Origin: Ferrovibrio sp.
Lineage (GTDB): Bacteria > Pseudomonadota > Alphaproteobacteria > Ferrovibrionales > Ferrovibrionaceae
Reading direction: 5' to 3'
DNA length: 64,000 bases
Assembly (NCBI RefSeq): GCF_029255545.1
Contig: NZ_JANLJJ010000094.1
Coordinates: 53,870-117,869 of the forward strand
Shown: piece by piece, positions 3,670-52,981 of the stretch
How positions within the stretch are numbered: the first letter of the stretch is position 1
Layout: each line of letters opens with the position of its first letter
The notes under the pieces: model-generated
What the model was told of the DNA's origin: nothing
Databases searched by the model: none
What the model saw: the letters and a program-made list of their open reading frames with translations, nothing else
Program-made: the position numbers and the translations under genes

Positions 3670-4458
3670 ATGGGAGCCTATCCGACAGATCTGACGGACG
3701 CGCAATGGGGCCTCATCAAGCCCCTGTTGCCGCAGCCGGCTGCTCTCGGTAGGCCCCGGCAGACAAGCCTACGCCGAGTGGTCGATGCGGTTCTCTATGT
3801 ACTGAAAACCGGCTGCCATTGGCGCATGTTGCCCATCGAGTTCCCGCACTGGCGCACCGTCTATGGTTATTTCATCGCGTGGCGCAACAGCAGCCTCTGG
3901 CTGGAGATTCACCGGCGGCTCTACGTGAAGGTTCGGCGGCTAGAGGGGCGCAATCCGAGCCCCAGTGCCATTGTGATCGACAGCCAGAGCGTTCGTACCG
4001 GGAAGATGGGCGGTCAGCGCGGCTACGATGGTGGCAAGCGTGTCAAAGGCCGCAAGCGCCATGTCGTAACGGATACGCTTGGCCTCCCACTTGCCATCAC
4101 CGTCACCTCCGCAAACGTCCATGACAGCAAAGGTGGAATGAAATCGGTGGAGCGCGCTGCCGATTTCGTTATTCATCCGGCCATTCGGAAGCTCTACGCC
4201 GATGGCGCCTATGGCGGGCAACCTTTTCGGCAATTTGTACGAAAGACTATACGATCCACAGTGACGGTCGCCGGTAATCTGGCACAAGTGACCAAACGGT
4301 TTGAACCAGTCCCGAAACGCTGGGTCATCGAGCGAACATTCGCGTGGTTCTACGATTGCCGTCGCTTGACCATCGACTACGAGCGAACGCTGCAAAGCAG
4401 CCGGGCCATGCTGCATATCGCCGCGATCAGGATTTTGCTCGGCCGAATGAACGAATAA
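3670..4458 (+). CDS. IS5-family DDE transposase
   Basis: LTDAQWGLIKPLLP.. VIDSQSVRTG.. GYDGGKRVKGRKRHVVTDTLG.. LYADGAYGG.. WVIERTFAWFYDCRRLTIDYER. Confidence 0.95.
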   Translation: MGAYPTDLTDAQWGLIKPLLPQPAALGRPRQTSLRRVVDAVLYVLKTGCHWRMLPIEFPHWRTVYGYFIAWRNSSLWLEIHRRLYVKVRRLEGRNPSPSAIVIDSQSVRTGKMGGQRGYDGGKRVKGRKRHVVTDTLGLPLAITVTSANVHDSKGGMKSVERAADFVIHPAIRKLYADGAYGGQPFRQFVRKTIRSTVTVAGNLAQVTKRFEPVPKRWVIERTFAWFYDCRRLTIDYERTLQSSRAMLHIAAIRILLGRMNE

Positions 4459-31776: not shown

Positions 31777-31926
31777 TTCATTCACCGAGATTGCCTCGGC
31801 GCCCGCTCGAACAAGCAGATTCAACTATTCGACTCCAGACCTTGAATAGCCTTACCGCACACTCGCATTGCCATTTCGGTCAGTACCAACCGAGATGAGC
31901 AGACTCGTTCTGATAAATTTGTACTT

Positions 31927-32075
31927 GGGACAATTTGCGACATCCCGCTGCTAAAGCACGCTAAGAATAGCCAATCCGCCTGCAGTTTTCCGATATTCTC
32001 CAAGTTGGCCGGAGAGGGAAAGTTAGCTTCCTCTGCTTATGATGGGGTCGCTCCTCCCTGCCCCGCATGATAGGT
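31927..32075 (+). repeat. degenerate copy of the att-proximal repeat
   Basis: GGGACAATTTGCGACATCCCGCTGCTAAAGCACGCTAAGAATAGC..CTGCAGTTTTCCGATATT.. clearly similar to 38482-38592 and 52826-52935. Confidence 0.7.
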
Positions 32076-32298: not shown

Positions 32299-32682
32299 CT
32301 ACCGAAATAGATTTCTGAGCCAACGCCAGAACGAGAAGTGCGGCCGACAGCTTTCGAAATATGCCTCTCGACGTGCTTGTTCAGATGCTCGTCCAGCCTG
32401 CACCTCAGCATCACTCCATTGAGTGGACCAGTGTACGTCCCCATTGTCTATAATGTAGTGAGATCGGCAGGGACGCTGCCAGCTTCCAACCGATGGCCAT
32501 AGCGACGGCCCCCGCGAGCCGTCGCGCACAGACCACTCAGTCGGACCAAGTGGCGTCCTGATCTTTTCACCACACCCGCAGGCACAGAGGTGAGCTGCCG
32601 TACTGTACTTTTCGGAGACATAGAGCACCCCAGGCTCCAGCACCTTCGGCATGAAATCGACTTGGCGGCGCTCAAATTTCAA
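32299..32682 (-). CDS. DUF6527-like small Cys/His protein of the ubiquitin-like operon
   Basis: LYVSEKYSTAAHLCACGCGEKIRTPLGPTEWSVRDG.PSLWPSVGSWQRPCRSHYIIDNGDVHW; overlaps the E1 gene. Confidence 0.75.
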   Translation of the reverse strand: MKFERRQVDFMPKVLEPGVLYVSEKYSTAAHLCACGCGEKIRTPLGPTEWSVRDGSRGPSLWPSVGSWQRPCRSHYIIDNGDVHWSTQWSDAEVQAGRASEQARREAYFESCRPHFSFWRWLRNLFR

Positions 32683-33871
32683 CGGACTGCCTCACTAGGC
32701 GCATATCGCCGACCTGGAAGATCAAGTTAAAGAACGGGTCATCATCGACATAGAGACCGAGTTTCTTTTTATACAGTAGCACAGCAAGCGACGCATTTAG
32801 CGAGTTGAGCTCCGCAATCTGAATGTTCGTTTTGTAGATATCGTCCGGGTTGTCGTGGGTCGGGACGAGCTGGGCATCACGGACCGCTTGCGCGTCCTCG
32901 GCCGAAAACAGCGTGGTTCTAACGCCGCCAGAAATCGAGCCGTGCTTGCGGTTCAGACCCATGCCGACATCGATGAAAGGAATGCCGAGCGAGATTAGTA
33001 GGTCGATAATTTTTTCTCGCGCGGATCCTTTGTCCACGCACACAAAAGCGAATGTCACACCCTCCAGATCGCCGGAGGACGTCTCATCAATGTACTTCGC
33101 ATCAAAATGCAGGCCATGGCGGAAATTGTTGTAGCGGCCGGCATAAACTTCGGCCTTGGTCTTACGCAGCTCACCATCATCAAGTAGCCGCCCTGGAGAT
33201 CGGTATGCATTGTGGACATGATAGGCATCGGCATCGAATGCCTTGATTGCCTTGACTGGTGTCTTGACCATGAAGTCGAGGACATATCCGCCTGTGCCAC
33301 CCAGCCCAATGATTGCGACGATTTCATTTTTGAATGCCGCAGCCAGATCACTGATCTCCGCGCGCGTAGTCAACGTGTCCCTGATCTTGAAGACGGATTC
33401 GTCTGGACTGCTGCCATAGGAGTTGAACGTCAGGGGGGTGACATTGTGCAAATCCATTGCCGGACCACTGATGATCGTAACGTACCGCTCTATCTTGTCG
33501 AAGAAATCGACATAGCCTGCGGCTGGTTTGTTGGAGAATTGGCGCTCGACGACCACGCGCGGCTCGACATTACTCAACTGGATCTGGTGCGGCGTATCAC
33601 CGAGGTTCGGGATCGGCTTGCCGTCCAGCCCATGCGGTGCTGATCCTGCGAATGAGACTTGGTGGTTCTGTTGCCTAACTTTCTCTTTGTCCTCGAACAC
33701 TAATAGGGTGGCGATTGCTCCCCACTTCAGCGCTCGCTCGGGACCGAGATAGGGGATATCCCGCACGACCAGATAATTGTTGTCGAACGAGATGGCATAT
33801 CCCCTCTCGGCGAGGCGCCGGATGTCGTCGTTACGACTGACCAGTGTCTGTAACATTGAACTCCATCCCAT
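32672..33871 (-). CDS. ThiF/E1-family ubiquitin-activating-like adenylyltransferase with N-terminal extension (DUF6791-like)
   Basis: Rossmann GLGGTGGYVLDFMVKTPVKAIKAFDAD..YHVHNAYRSPG; likely start Met at 33856. Confidence 0.85.
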   Translation of the reverse strand: MGWSSMLQTLVSRNDDIRRLAERGYAISFDNNYLVVRDIPYLGPERALKWGAIATLLVFEDKEKVRQQNHQVSFAGSAPHGLDGKPIPNLGDTPHQIQLSNVEPRVVVERQFSNKPAAGYVDFFDKIERYVTIISGPAMDLHNVTPLTFNSYGSSPDESVFKIRDTLTTRAEISDLAAAFKNEIVAIIGLGGTGGYVLDFMVKTPVKAIKAFDADAYHVHNAYRSPGRLLDDGELRKTKAEVYAGRYNNFRHGLHFDAKYIDETSSGDLEGVTFAFVCVDKGSAREKIIDLLISLGIPFIDVGMGLNRKHGSISGGVRTTLFSAEDAQAVRDAQLVPTHDNPDDIYKTNIQIAELNSLNASLAVLLYKKKLGLYVDDDPFFNLIFQVGDMRLVRQSVEI

Positions 33872-34115
33872 CCTTCACCTTCACCGAGCCGCCCGGCGAG
33901 AGAACGCCTTCGGGCTTGTTCCCATGGCCCTTCTTATAGGTCACGGAGTAGGTGCGCTCTGGATGCTGGGGGTAGTCAGGAAACTCAAGGGTGACCACCT
34001 GGGCGTAGGTGATATCCTCGTTTTTCGGCCATTCGTGGGGTGTCGCCTCCACGATGATGGTGGCCGTCTTGTCGTTGCCACCTCCACCGTGGCCTTTATC
34101 CTTGTGGTCGGCCAT
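33831..34115 (-). CDS. multiubiquitin-family ubiquitin-like protein (single domain)
   Basis: TATIIVEATPHEWPKNEDITYAQVVTLEFPDYPQHPERTYSVTYKKGHGNKPEGVLSPGGSVKVKDGMEFNVTDTGQS matches the remembered multiubiquitin-domain pattern. Confidence 0.85.
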   Translation of the reverse strand: MADHKDKGHGGGGNDKTATIIVEATPHEWPKNEDITYAQVVTLEFPDYPQHPERTYSVTYKKGHGNKPEGVLSPGGSVKVKDGMEFNVTDTGQS

Positions 34116-34202: not shown

Positions 34203-34418
34203 CTATTTCTCTTTAACCGTCGTATTCGGGCTCCGTTTGCCGTGATCGGTCGTCACGTACCGCCCGCTGATTGCACTGCGGTAGTGATCGCCCGAAGAGC
34301 CGCTCTTACCCCGGCTTTCGTGCACGGTCGTCCCGGGGCTCGCCTTGCCATGCGCCGTCGTCACATAGCGGCCGGAGATGGCGCTCCTATAGGGGCCGCT
34401 AGCTTTTCCCTTGCTCAT
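34203..34418 (-). CDS. small basic protein with two tandem YRSAISGRYVTTxHGKxSPxTTV repeats
   Basis: Start MSKGKASGPYRSAISGRYVTTAHGKASPGTTV..HYRSAISGRYVTTDHGKRSPNTTVKEK. Confidence 0.8.
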   Translation of the reverse strand: MSKGKASGPYRSAISGRYVTTAHGKASPGTTVHESRGKSGSSGDHYRSAISGRYVTTDHGKRSPNTTVKEK

Positions 34419-34465
34419 TTTCATCAACCTTTCCAAGATCTTCACCAGCCAATCTGGCACGAAAC

Positions 34466-34485
34466 CGTATGGATTAAACCATACG
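34466..34485. promoter_or_regulatory. inverted repeat between the divergent repeat-protein and XRE genes
   Basis: CGTATGG-ATTAAA-CCATACG. Confidence 0.6.
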
Positions 34486-34572
34486 ACTTCTATTCTGTCA
34501 ACTAATCTGTTACGGTTTCGTCAGGATATTAGCAGTCCCCGTAGGGGCAGATTTTTATGCAGCGGAGGGCGA

Positions 34573-34893
34573 GTGGCGCTATCAGACAATATTCGGAAGC
34601 ATCGTGAGCGCGCGCGAAAGTCGTTGCAGGAACTTGCAGATGCGACAGGTGCGTCGAAGGCGCACATCTGGGAAATCGAGACGAACCGTGCGAAGAATCC
34701 GTCGATTGATTTACTGACGAAAATATCAAGCGTACTCGGCGTGAGTGTCGCAGAACTGGTCGGTGAGAATCCTCGCGATCCAGACGAAGCCCCCGAGATT
34801 GTCGCTATGTACCGAGACCTTAAAGGCCTCTCCGAAGGCGACCGGAAAGTGATCCAGGAGATGATCTCGCACTTCCGAAAGCGCAAGGACTGA
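34573..34893 (+). CDS. XRE-family HTH regulator
   Basis: GTG start with GGAGGGCGA upstream; LSDNIRKHRERARKSLQELADATGASKAHIWEIETNRAKNPSIDLLTKISSVLGVSVAELVG. Confidence 0.92.
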   Translation: MALSDNIRKHRERARKSLQELADATGASKAHIWEIETNRAKNPSIDLLTKISSVLGVSVAELVGENPRDPDEAPEIVAMYRDLKGLSEGDRKVIQEMISHFRKRKD

Positions 34894-34894
34894 C

Positions 34895-35806
34895 ATGCTG
34901 TCGGTGACCAGGATGGATCTAGACGGTCCTACGTCTCCCACTGCCCTGGTCATGAAGATTCTCAAATCCGAACCAAGCCTCACGCTGCCGATTCCAATCG
35001 AAGCAATCGCCCGACAGCTCGACATCACAGATATTGTCGAAATCGAGGCAGAAGGCTTCGTGGGTGGCCTGATTACCGACACCAGTCGCAGTGCTGGCTC
35101 CATCCTTGTTCGACGCGGCCTCATGGAAGAGCGTCGCCGATTCACCGTCGGGCATGAACTCGGCCATTTTCTAATGCGGCATCATAAAGGCGCTGCAGAA
35201 GGCTTCCGCTGCACGGCGGTCGATATGCGCCGTAACCAGCGGGTGGGAGAACTAACACCTGCCATGCGATGGGAGGTCGAGGCGAACGAATTCTCATCGC
35301 TGCTATTGATGCCCCCTCAGCTGTGGCGCAGGGAGATGGCAGGCTTCCGCCGACCAGAAATCGGTCAAGTGACGGAGATGGCCCAGCGCTTCGCGGTTAG
35401 CAAAGAAGCTGCGGCGCGGACTTTTGCGTCCTATCACGAGCTGCCGATAGCGATGGTTGTGGTGAAAGACGGCAAGTTCGAGCGGGTGTACCGCAACATC
35501 AGCAAGTTTCCGAAACTCTGCGTCACCCATGGCATGCCAATTCCAGTCGGGTCGGTCTTCCATCGAGCCAAAAACATCTCTGGGAAAGTTACCGACCTAG
35601 TTGAAGCCCGCGCAGAAGAGTGGCTGGAGTCTGATTGGGGCAAGCCGATGCCCGCCCTCTCAGAACAAGTGCAGTTCCAGGCTGGCGGCTACGCTCTAAT
35701 TATGCTCTGGGCCGAAATGGAGGAGCAGGACGATGAATACGATCCAGACGATGACCGAACCGCGAAACAGCGGCTGGCCGACCGCGTTTCGCGTTCCAAC
35801 AGATAA
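34895..35806 (+). CDS. ImmA/IrrE-family metallopeptidase
   Basis: RFTVGHELGHFLMRHHK (HExxH); directly follows the XRE gene. Confidence 0.92.
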   Translation: MLSVTRMDLDGPTSPTALVMKILKSEPSLTLPIPIEAIARQLDITDIVEIEAEGFVGGLITDTSRSAGSILVRRGLMEERRRFTVGHELGHFLMRHHKGAAEGFRCTAVDMRRNQRVGELTPAMRWEVEANEFSSLLLMPPQLWRREMAGFRRPEIGQVTEMAQRFAVSKEAAARTFASYHELPIAMVVVKDGKFERVYRNISKFPKLCVTHGMPIPVGSVFHRAKNISGKVTDLVEARAEEWLESDWGKPMPALSEQVQFQAGGYALIMLWAEMEEQDDEYDPDDDRTAKQRLADRVSRSNR

Positions 35807-36230
35807 CGGGCGCCAACCCGAGCCGCGGTTGTATCCCTACGGTCGTTACGACCATTAGAACAACCCGTCATTCTCGCCTGCTTAACTGTGTAGTTTCACG
35901 CTCAGTAGATTTTTCTTCAAATCACTCTACAAGGACGACAATCTTGGGTGATTGACAGAGCCGCCGCCCTTTTACCGCCAAAAAACACTGTTAGACAAAT
36001 TCTCACTTATTGATTTGCGATTCTCATTTATTGCTGGACTGAACAGTAAATCCACCGAAACAACCAAATCACGCTCAGCGCGTTCCCCACGATGAACTTC
36101 CGGGAAGGCCCATCCACGTCTCCCATCAGACACATCTGAGCCAATCGATCTTCCGGCCTACTGGCTGGAAGATTGGTCCCGCACCGTATGTGTCTTAGAT
36201 GTAAAAGCACAAGTTCGAGATTTTTCCATT

Positions 36231-36252
36231 TATTGGTGTTATACCACCTGTA
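36231..36252. promoter_or_regulatory. imperfect operator related to the 38345 palindrome
   Basis: TATTGGTGTTATACCACCTGTA, about 30 nt upstream of the XRE gene at 36284. Confidence 0.55.
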
Positions 36253-36283
36253 TTTAGTCCCCTCGGCCTGTTCGTTTGCGGCC

Positions 36284-36571
36284 ATGGACATTCGAAAAAT
36301 CGTTGGGCGAAATCTGCGCAAATTGCGGGTTGAGCGAGGAATGACAATAGACGACCTTGCCGGAGATGCTGATGCAGAACCCTCGTGGACTGCCAGGATC
36401 GAACGAGGCTTGGTCAACGTTGGAGTTGATCAGCTTGCCCGGTACGCAAAAGTGCTGAAAGTTAAGGTAGCTGACCTTTTCGTTGAGCCGGCCCCGGGTT
36501 CGGCGATTCCAAAGCCGCTAAAGCCTGGCCGGCGCCCTTCACGCAACTCACCAAAAGCTCGTAGTCGTTAA
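36284..36571 (+). CDS. XRE-family HTH regulator
   Basis: MDIRKIVGRNLRKLRVERGMTIDDLAGDADAEPSWTARIERGLVNVGVDQLARYAKVLKVKVADLF. Confidence 0.88.
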   Translation: MDIRKIVGRNLRKLRVERGMTIDDLAGDADAEPSWTARIERGLVNVGVDQLARYAKVLKVKVADLFVEPAPGSAIPKPLKPGRRPSRNSPKARSR

Positions 36572-36588: not shown

Positions 36589-36957
36589 TTAGTGCTTGTG
36601 ATGGGCGGAACACCGGACACGATACCATCCCTTCGCAATCAACTCTCCAGGCTGACTGCAGACCCCGCATGTGCGTGCGCTAGTTTGCACTGCTGACTCA
36701 ATCAGTTCCTCGATTTCGTGACCTGCAACTGCCGCAATTCTCAATAGGCCATATTTCTCTTTCACCTGCCAAACCACGAACCCCTGACGGCACTCCGTGT
36801 CTAGGTGTTCGATCTTCTCGGCGAGATCCCAAAGCAACGGAATCCATCCTGCCTCAAACGAGAAGTCGCCAACCTTCTTGTCGGCAGTTAATTTTGCGAA
36901 TTTCTGCCGCAGATCGACTAGTGAGACCACTGGAATACACCTTGCTGTTCCCCTCAC
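36589..36957 (-). CDS. hypothetical protein with C-terminal zinc-ribbon-like CxxC..CxxH
   Basis: ..VWQVKEKYGLLRIAA..ARTCGVCSQPGELIAKGWYRVRCSAHHKH. Confidence 0.65.
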   Translation of the reverse strand: MRGTARCIPVVSLVDLRQKFAKLTADKKVGDFSFEAGWIPLLWDLAEKIEHLDTECRQGFVVWQVKEKYGLLRIAAVAGHEIEELIESAVQTSARTCGVCSQPGELIAKGWYRVRCSAHHKH

Positions 36958-37694
36958 GCGCGCAGGACCCTCAGAATCTGATAGGGACTATGCGTGCAGC
37001 GGACACAGCCGTGTGGCGCGGCCCCCTTTGACATCTCGATTGGTCCAAAATTGTATTTGTGCAATGTATGACCGAAACGATCCACCGGGATCTCACCCAA
37101 ATTTCCGACAGCGACATCCGCGATAAGGTCTCCATCAAGCATCGCGAAATCGGAGATCCTAAATCCCTTCCCCAGCGCTGCTGACGCCGAACAGAAGTCC
37201 GCCCACCGAATGCCATCGGCGTATGGCACCAACACTCCGCCCGGCAGACTTAGGATGCTTGGATCGTCGTCAAAAGCCGCATAGCTCTCAATCTCCCCGC
37301 CCGCATGCTGCACTCTGTTCAGCCACTGATAAATCTCGTCTGATCTCGTTGCGCCTTTTCCTTCAGGCTCAGTACACCAACTGGCATGCAGCCAAGTGGA
37401 AGAGAGTCCGTTGATGTCGAGAATGTGCTCGACATTCCTTCTTCCGAGCTTCCTCCAACTCGACGTGATGACAAGCCGGGCATCGTGTCCGAGTACTAAT
37501 TCCCCCACAAGCGACACGGCAACCGGGTCGAACTTCGGAACACGCGTCTCGCGATTAAACTTCCGAATTTCCGTTGCATCAAAAGGCTCGGGCAGATCAG
37601 CAAGATCTCCACCCCAGATCAAGGGCAGAGATCTTGCTCGGTGCGAAATCATCGGACCATCAAAGTCCAGGAAGATCACCTTCATGTATTCCAC
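36954..37694 (-). CDS. HAD-like domain protein (related to HAD of RNA-repair 'Swiss army knife' proteins)
   Basis: MKVIFLDFDGPMIS (HAD motif I), ARLVITSSWRKLG (motif II), AAFDDDPS; ATGA overlap with the downstream gene. Confidence 0.75.
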   Translation of the reverse strand: MEYMKVIFLDFDGPMISHRARSLPLIWGGDLADLPEPFDATEIRKFNRETRVPKFDPVAVSLVGELVLGHDARLVITSSWRKLGRRNVEHILDINGLSSTWLHASWCTEPEGKGATRSDEIYQWLNRVQHAGGEIESYAAFDDDPSILSLPGGVLVPYADGIRWADFCSASAALGKGFRISDFAMLDGDLIADVAVGNLGEIPVDRFGHTLHKYNFGPIEMSKGAAPHGCVRCTHSPYQILRVLRA

Positions 37695-38318
37695 ACGTGA
37701 AGTTTTCCATCGAATTCGTTCAGTTCGTGCTGAGACAAAATGTAGATCTCTTCTTCCTTTGGATTCTCGCTTTGCACTTTTGCAAGGAGTTGATCAATGG
37801 TCCGGGACGACTTCCCGCCCTGCCGAGTACCCAAATGCCACCGCGGCCGATCTGCTTGTGTAACAGCAAAGTTTAAGCCCAAAGCAAGATGGCTCAGCGC
37901 TGGCGTCACCCCCCCATCCGTCTCGTCGCTCAGGATGACCCGACAAAAGCCCGGCAAGCCGAAACCTGGATCCGACGACGATGACCTCCCACAACTCGGC
38001 CTGTGCAGCAGTGGCCAGCGGAGGCGGCGACCAGCCCCACCTCCGCTGCCACTCGTTTGCCTCGTAGCGGAATATTCGACGCCACTCTTCTCTTTTCAGA
38101 AATTCTGCCTCCGCATCGGCTGGCGGCTCAACTTCTGGACCTGCCCAGACGGCAAGATACTTGCGGCCCTCGAAATCACTGGCGGTGCCTTTGCTAAAGT
38201 TGACTGAGGTTAGGCTCCCTGACGAAAGCCAGCTGCCAGAAGGAGTTCGACCGACCAAGATCACGGAGCCTTTCAGTTCGAATAGCATGGCACCTGCAAT
38301 CGGAATGTCAGTGTCCAT
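37682..38318 (-). pseudogene. hypothetical gene split by an apparent frameshift
   Basis: Frame 1 (37794-38318) ..ELWEVIVVGSRFR and frame 2 (37682-37957) LPGFCRVILSDETDGGVTPALSHLALGLNFAV.. join near 37955-37970 into one plausible protein of about 210 aa. Confidence 0.55.
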
Positions 38319-38481: not shown

Positions 38482-38592
38482 GGGACAATTTGGGACACAC
38501 CGCTGCTAAAGCATGCTATCGATAGCTACTTGGGCAGATAACCCATCTGCAGTTTTCCGCTATTTTCCCAGGCGTCTGGAGGGAGCAAGTCA
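38482..38592 (+). repeat. att-proximal repeat, copy adjoining the tRNA-Gly fragment
   Basis: GGGACAATTTGGGACACACCGCTGCTAAAGCATGCTATCGATAGC..CTGCAGTTTTCCGCTATTTT. Confidence 0.75.
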
Positions 38593-38638
38593 GCTTCCCA
38601 AGCTTACGACGGGGGTTCGATTCCCCTCACCCGCTCCA
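38593..38638 (+). repeat. 46-bp att core = 3' part of tRNA-Gly(CCC)
   Basis: GCTTCCCAAGCTTACGACGGGGGTTCGATTCCCCTCACCCGCTCCA: anticodon loop, T-arm GGGGGTTCGATTCCCCT, acceptor CACCCGC-T-CCA; no 5' tRNA half. Confidence 0.85.
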
Positions 38639-52935: not shown

Positions 52936-52981
52936 GCTTCCCAAGCTTACGACGGGGGTTCGATTCCCCTCACCCGCTCCA
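52936..52981 (+). repeat. 46-bp att core, identical to 38593-38638
   Basis: GCTTCCCAAGCTTACGACGGGGGTTCGATTCCCCTCACCCGCTCCA, exact match. Confidence 0.88.

Follow-up and report, generated by a model that had tools for sequence, protein, structure and literature searches.

Here, we identify a compact operon for a ubiquitin-like protein (Ubl), a ThiF-type E1 and a DUF6527 protein in Ferrovibrio sp. as a member of the polyUbl/DUF6527 class (Iyer group 6e, domain-X subset) in a single-Ubl, JAB-less form and, judged from the sequences of its products, as a JAB-less and Prok-E2-less sister of the Bub operons. We propose, with about even confidence, that it is a mobile, DNA-damage-inducible operon for Cys-independent protein modification by the Ubl; a putative role in defence is plausible. 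The operon class is not new, having been described since 2006 with its families already in Pfam and NCBIfam, and as a find within this genome the operon is unremarkable, being a further copy of a catalogued family. Its interest lies in a possible Cys-free, Gly-free chemistry that its compactness makes testable. The three genes are a complete, compact and widespread form of a Ubl class with poorly known chemistry, and the trio is small enough for reconstitution from one expression plasmid. Conjugation without E1 or E2 cysteines or a Gly terminus would, if true, widen the scope of ubiquitin-type chemistry and bear on its origins.

The window, i.e., the whole stretch of DNA that was analysed, comprises 64,000 nt of contig NZ_JANLJJ010000094.1, and the operon lies on this 124-kb contig. 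The features discussed below are, in window positions:

31926-32060, plus strand: degenerate copy of the tRNA-Gly(CCC) repeat, left island edge (repeat match)
32299-32682, minus strand: DUF6527 protein, predicted to bind metal (H-x-C-x-C-G-C ... C-x2-H; PF20137, 5e-22)
32672-33856, minus strand: E1 of 394 aa, DUF6791 (residues 11-162; PF20590, 3e-40) plus ThiF adenylation domain (about 165-394; PF00899, 2e-8)
33831-34115, minus strand: Ubl of 94 aa with a single Multi_ubiq beta-grasp domain (PF14452, 2e-16)
34203-34460, minus strand: small ORF of 85 aa, 5' of the Ubl gene, with two RSAISGRYVTT-type repeats (ORF call)
34461-34490, no strand: imperfect 15+15 palindrome GAAACCGTATGGATT/AAACCATACGACTTC between the divergent genes (inverted repeat)
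34573-34893, plus strand: capH-type XRE repressor, divergent from the operon (PADLOC capH, 2.5e-26)
34895-35806, plus strand: capP-type ImmA/IrrE (M78) protease, divergent from the operon (PADLOC capP, 6.8e-54; PF06114, 8e-14)
38592-38638, plus strand: 47 bp of the tRNA-Gly(CCC) 3' end, att-like repeat, right island edge (identity 47/47)

The initial annotation placed three overlapping minus-strand genes at 32299-34115. ORF calls agree with its coordinates, motifs and gene count, and Pfam matches, all above the gathering scores and far too strong for chance, agree with its reading of the products as a multiubiquitin-type Ubl, a ThiF/E1 and a DUF6527-like protein. The Ubl gene starts at ATG 34115, with AGGAG upstream, and its stop ends at 33831. 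The E1 gene runs from ATG 33856 to a stop at 32672, overlaps the Ubl gene by 26 bp and encodes the GLGGTGG motif, while the DUF6527 gene, encoding CACGCGEK...PCRSHY, starts at TTG 32682 or ATG 32652 and ends at 32299. The unit is, however, wider than this interval and includes capH/capP, the small ORF and an island at about 31.78-38.64 kb. The initial annotation did not notice CapH/CapP or the att repeats of tRNA-Gly, nor that the E1 lacks a catalytic Cys and the Ubl a C-terminal Gly. The small ORF is possibly the first gene of the operon transcript; it matches no Pfam or NCBIfam family and has no homologue at the loci of the relatives. DUF2188 genes stand in its place at loci L013 and L105.

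The Ubl/E1/DUF6527 trio is a conserved and widespread unit. A GTDB scan with the E1 profile yielded at least 495 confirmed relatives, of which 80 loci from more than 10 phyla were kept; together with eight plasmid loci, these form the set of 88 loci used here. In this neighbourhood survey, which had been suggested at the outset, the Ubl gene lies upstream of the E1 gene at 88 of 88 loci and a DUF6527 match is present at 87. The exact 26-bp Ubl/E1 overlap is possible, via an in-frame E1 start codon, at 73 of the 88. In a set of 385 genomes of Alphaproteobacteria, 7 encode DUF6791 and 11 encode DUF6527, and in all seven with DUF6791 a DUF6527 gene lies about 0.8-1.3 kb away (Fisher P = 1.4e-12, 385 genomes). 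Relatives are also found on 114 plasmid records, 40 of them typed as conjugative. A viral or phage origin was rejected, as neither IMG/VR nor the phage records contain any relative.

PolyUbl operons of group 6e, with a subset carrying "domain X instead of JAB", were described by Iyer, Burroughs and Aravind in 2006 (PMC1779556). We infer that domain X is DUF6791, an identification made here and not stated in that paper. The likeness to group 6e extends to a Multi-Ub-type Ubl upstream of the E1, an unrelated, non-JAB N-terminal domain in the E1 (DUF6791 in the window), a separate predicted metal-binding protein with conserved Cys and His residues (DUF6527) and a mobile, sporadic distribution. 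However, group 6e has two or three Ub domains and a Prok-E2/RWD gene, whereas the operon in the window has one Ub domain and no such gene. For one species, the 2006 survey lists a Ub-like domain that stands alone, and for a non-JAB variant of Mesorhizobium it lists three tandem Ub-like domains (PMC1779556); the Mesorhizobium locus analysed here (L018) is a three-Ub DUF6791 operon.

Bub is the name now given to the branch that has been studied most. The Citrobacter Bub operon and nine other Bub-like operons mostly encode Multi_ubiq, Prok-E2_E, Prok-JAB plus ThiF, and DUF6527, with DUF6527 not annotated in two of the ten; several lie under CapK/S-like or CapH/P-type genes. The window shares with Bub the combination of Multi_ubiq, ThiF E1 and DUF6527 as well as the type of upstream regulator, which is capH/capP here and CapH/CapP, CapW or CapK/S in Bub. 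It differs from Bub in having neither Prok-E2_E, which there is separate or fused to the Ubl, nor a JAB-E1, in place of which it has a DUF6791-E1. The hhalign match between the window-type E1 and the Bub JAB-E1 (6e-16) covers the ThiF part, and the E1 profile matches 9ea4 at 3.9e-7; 9ea4 and 9ea8 are the Citrobacter structures of BubCD and BubA, respectively. A comparison of profiles A2 and A10 was set aside as circular because A10 includes window-type sequences. The Bub work of Gong (2025) and Ye (2026), both cited in PMC13373217, may already cover operons of the DUF6791 type. Bil (BilABCD) and CBASS Cap2, an E2-E1 fusion, share the logic of a bacterial Ubl and E1, but they have recognised E2s, and Bil also has a JAB, whereas the window has no recognisable E2 or JAB.

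The Ubl family profile matches the solved structure 9cd2 (ZDHYS365 multi-ubiquitin domain protein) over its full length (1.5e-50), and because of this match the beta-grasp fold of the Ubl is established by homology. While 9cd2 has three beta-grasp domains, the window Ubl has one, as do most of its close relatives; the family as a whole ranges from one to three. Plasmid-borne homologues of 9cd2 are directly followed by a ThiF gene. The window Ubl ends in ...FNVTDTGQS. This tail follows a T-x-x-S pattern in the 88 relatives, with a terminal Ser in 86 and Thr at -4 in 87, and the tail of 9cd2 is VTQTDKS; a C-terminal Gly is present in none of the 88 related Ubls. The tail might have been a mere by-product of the gene overlap, but TGQS is kept at six loci (L050, L055, L057, L062, L074 and L085) at which the E1 frame, as identified, does not allow an overlap with the Ubl stop. 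By contrast, several stand-alone Ubls of JAB-type operons, Bub included, end in ...TTEG. The persistence of TGQS without overlap and the different ending in JAB-type operons thus make T-x-x-S look like a functional feature of the Ubl that differs between operon types.

Several lines of evidence bear on the activity of the E1. First, the protein scores 553 bits with NCBIfam NF004803/PRK06153, for which the cut-off is 419. Second, ATP-site residues are mostly 96-100% conserved across 89 sequences (the G184-G189 loop GxGGTG, D208, D210, N216, R219, K234 and D275), and because these residues are kept, the E1 likely carries out adenylation. Third, the E1 is not a cofactor enzyme, an outcome that would have undone the initial reading, since the ThiF/MoeB equivalogs score far below their cut-offs (TIGR02356, 27.5 bits vs 275; PRK05690, 11 vs 266) and since a Ubl gene is adjacent at 88 of 88 loci. 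The PADLOC E1-E2 models align with the window E1 only around the Rossmann loop. Across the 89 sequences, there is no conserved Cys at the catalytic E1 position and no CxxC pair. C273 is the sole Cys of the window E1 and the only common Cys among the 89 E1s (90%). It lies in the strand leading to D275, and its position two residues before this ATP-site residue rules it out as a catalytic Cys.

The N-terminal DUF6791 domain has eight invariant or near-invariant residues across the 89 sequences (H65, G71, P74, S108, K110, K121, Y125 and D160). S108 is conserved at 100% and is the sole invariant Ser of the entire E1. From this conservation alone, we infer that Ser108 might be an acyl acceptor; its invariance may instead be structural. 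AF2 models were made of the DUF6791 domain and of DUF6527. The model of the DUF6791 domain is fair (pLDDT 85, pTM 0.78), and a Foldseek search of the PDB with it, in line with the check suggested at the outset, placed Atg3/Atg10 E2s as the top three matches, with non-significant E values of 0.056-0.085 and TM scores of about 0.2-0.26 (Atg3, E 0.056, TM 0.26). UBE2H and Rad6 appear lower in the list, and helix-grip folds score similarly. E values and TM scores in this range hint at an E2 fold of DUF6791 but do not establish one. The initial reading of the operon as free of E2 and JAB is right for recognisable JAB and Prok-E2 domains, but its "without E2" is too firm in view of these matches. 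DUF6791 as a JAB or Prok-E2_E domain was rejected by hhalign, as neither the comparison with the JAB of BubCD (P 0.16) nor that with Prok-E2_E (P 0.086) was significant, and at E<=10 no Pfam family was found in the domain beyond DUF6791 itself and scattered noise. Pro-Cys at 74-75, ten residues past the conserved His65, is present in 34 of 89 relatives. The family is not uniform at position 75, where Cys, His and Tyr all occur and the window E1 has His; this variation rules out Cys75 as a universal catalytic Cys.

In DUF6527, H31, C33, C35, C37, C72 and H75 are conserved at 99%, and P63, S64 and G66 are invariant; together, this pattern resembles a metal site plus a conserved surface. The AF2 model is confident (pLDDT 92.7) and has no PDB fold match (best E 0.46), and sequence searches with DUF6527 gave nothing meaningful. 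Metal binding, target recognition or tag removal are guesses at its role. The window protein aligns with the DUF6527 proteins of JAB-type operons, including that of Nostoc, and DUF6527 is also annotated in the Synechocystis operon.

The divergent capP is the only M78 gene in this genome, and the probability that it lies beside the operon by chance is therefore negligible. At 36 of 74 related loci, an ORF for an M78 protease with HExxH lies within 2.6 kb upstream, 32 of these divergently, and five WYL proteins are encoded at related loci. With about half of the related loci lacking an upstream M78 gene, this regulator is associated with the operon but not obligatory. These observations sit beside earlier ones: in a study of Synechocystis from 2016, 70% of PF14452 proteins adjoin HTH/COG2856 pairs, then taken as toxin-antitoxin (PMC4963859), and Bub is often associated with CapH and CapP or with CapW (PMC13373217). 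In CapP-type control, an ssDNA-activated protease cleaves CapH, and DNA damage is sensed in this way (PMC13373217). The palindrome at 34461-34490 is a candidate operator for CapH. A second XRE regulator (36173-36571) is encoded in the same island; it matches capH more weakly (6.9e-9) and has no protease partner.

Synteny with two genomes of the same genus stops at 31778-31782, just past dctP. This breakpoint and the repeats at 31926-32060 and 38592-38638 delimit an island of about 6.8 kb with tRNA-Gly att-like repeats at its borders. The 47-bp repeat is identical to the 3' end of a tRNA-Gly(CCC) gene at contig position 11026-11099 (ARAGORN), and this call also led us to reject a tmRNA as its origin. 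A further copy of the tRNA-Gly(CCC) 3' end lies at about 52936-52981 (46/46), and a GGGACAATTTGGGACA-like motif stands before each of the copies at 31926-32060, 38592-38638 and 52936-52981. In the same genus, the 47 bp are found at tRNA-Gly genes and at further places. The three copies in the window suggest more than one round of integration, at tRNA-Gly or close by. None of the island proteins that were scanned is recognisable as an integrase. The island also encodes a HAD_SAK_2 protein (36954-37694; PF18143, 6e-12), of a family linked to RNA repair, adjoined by ORFs at 36589-36957 and 37794-38318. Elsewhere in the window, an ORF at 3670-4458 resembles an IS5 transposase by sequence only.

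In the model that we propose, CapH would repress the operon, and DNA damage or phage ssDNA would activate CapP, leading to cleavage of CapH and expression of the operon. The Ubl would need no maturation step because its gene ends at the putatively functional TGQS tail. The ThiF domain would use ATP to adenylate the carboxylate of the terminal Ser, and a target-protein amine would then receive the acyl group either directly or via an oxyester on Ser108 of DUF6791, both routes being proposed because there is no catalytic Cys. DUF6527 would bind metal and select targets or assist transfer or removal. The full chemical scheme, i.e., a Gly-free, Cys-free Ubl pathway in which the adenylated terminal Ser is transferred directly or through the Ser108 oxyester to targets or a small molecule, with DUF6527 as a zinc-type partner lacking a PDB fold match, is put forward tentatively, and we consider it rather unlikely.

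Other readings of the same features have to be weighed. MccB, whose substrate is the microcin C7 heptapeptide, modified at its C-terminal Asn, resembles the window E1 in having an extra N-terminal domain and in adenylating, like an E1, a peptide C-terminus that is not Gly, and the E1 profile matches it at 2e-5; the MccB system involves neither a Ubl nor DUF6527. By analogy, the E1 would adenylate the Ubl Ser and leave a nucleotide or small group there, and the Ubl product or its assemblies would be the active agent. The missing catalytic Cys, the missing dedicated Prok-E2 gene and a conserved non-Gly C-terminus, as would suit an enzyme reading the last side chain, fit such a mechanism. We regard it as unlikely, however: the surroundings of the operon contain no recognisable gene for a peptide exporter or for self-immunity, and in the sister Bub operons these families of Ubl, E1 and DUF6527 are found together with Prok-E2_E and JAB; for Bub, a 2026 paper, going by its title, reportedly claims protein conjugation. 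If DUF6791 were instead a diverged E2, the protein would be an E2-E1 fusion like CBASS Cap2, with a thioester only in the Cys75 subset. The Atg3/Atg10 fold matches, with UBE2H and Rad6 further down, an alpha/beta order in the AF2 model compatible with UBC/RWD and the Pro-Cys of 34 relatives all point this way. Yet the fold scores are not significant and are shared by helix-grip folds, position 75 varies and is His in the window, and no profile links DUF6791 to Prok-E2_E, leaving this reading rather unlikely.

A ThiS/MoaD-type sulfur carrier with its activating enzyme, serving cofactor synthesis or tRNA thiolation, would explain the ThiF Rossmann domain, and this genome does hold other ThiF-family genes. 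It is nevertheless highly improbable in view of a Ubl without a Gly-Gly terminus, the very low equivalog scores, the sporadic occurrence on plasmids and islands and the defence-type regulator genes. A different question is what the operon responds to. That it serves a DNA-damage-induced stress response and is not anti-phage is a serious possibility, although we hold it to be short of an even chance. It draws on the sensing of DNA damage by CapP-type control and on Bub, for which phage protection has not been demonstrated (PMC13373217), whereas the mobile, patchy spread of the operon (7 of 385 genomes, 114 plasmid records) resembles that of defence genes.

Further genes accompany individual operons. 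A Bub-like operon of Bradyrhizobium has a phosphotransferase gene between the ThiF E1 and DUF6527 (L108:4252-5856). On rhizobial plasmids (L019, L102 and L106), genes for an S8 peptidase and an AAA/ATP-binding protein adjoin Ubl operons of both types, and these two look like a separate, recurrent defence-type pair.
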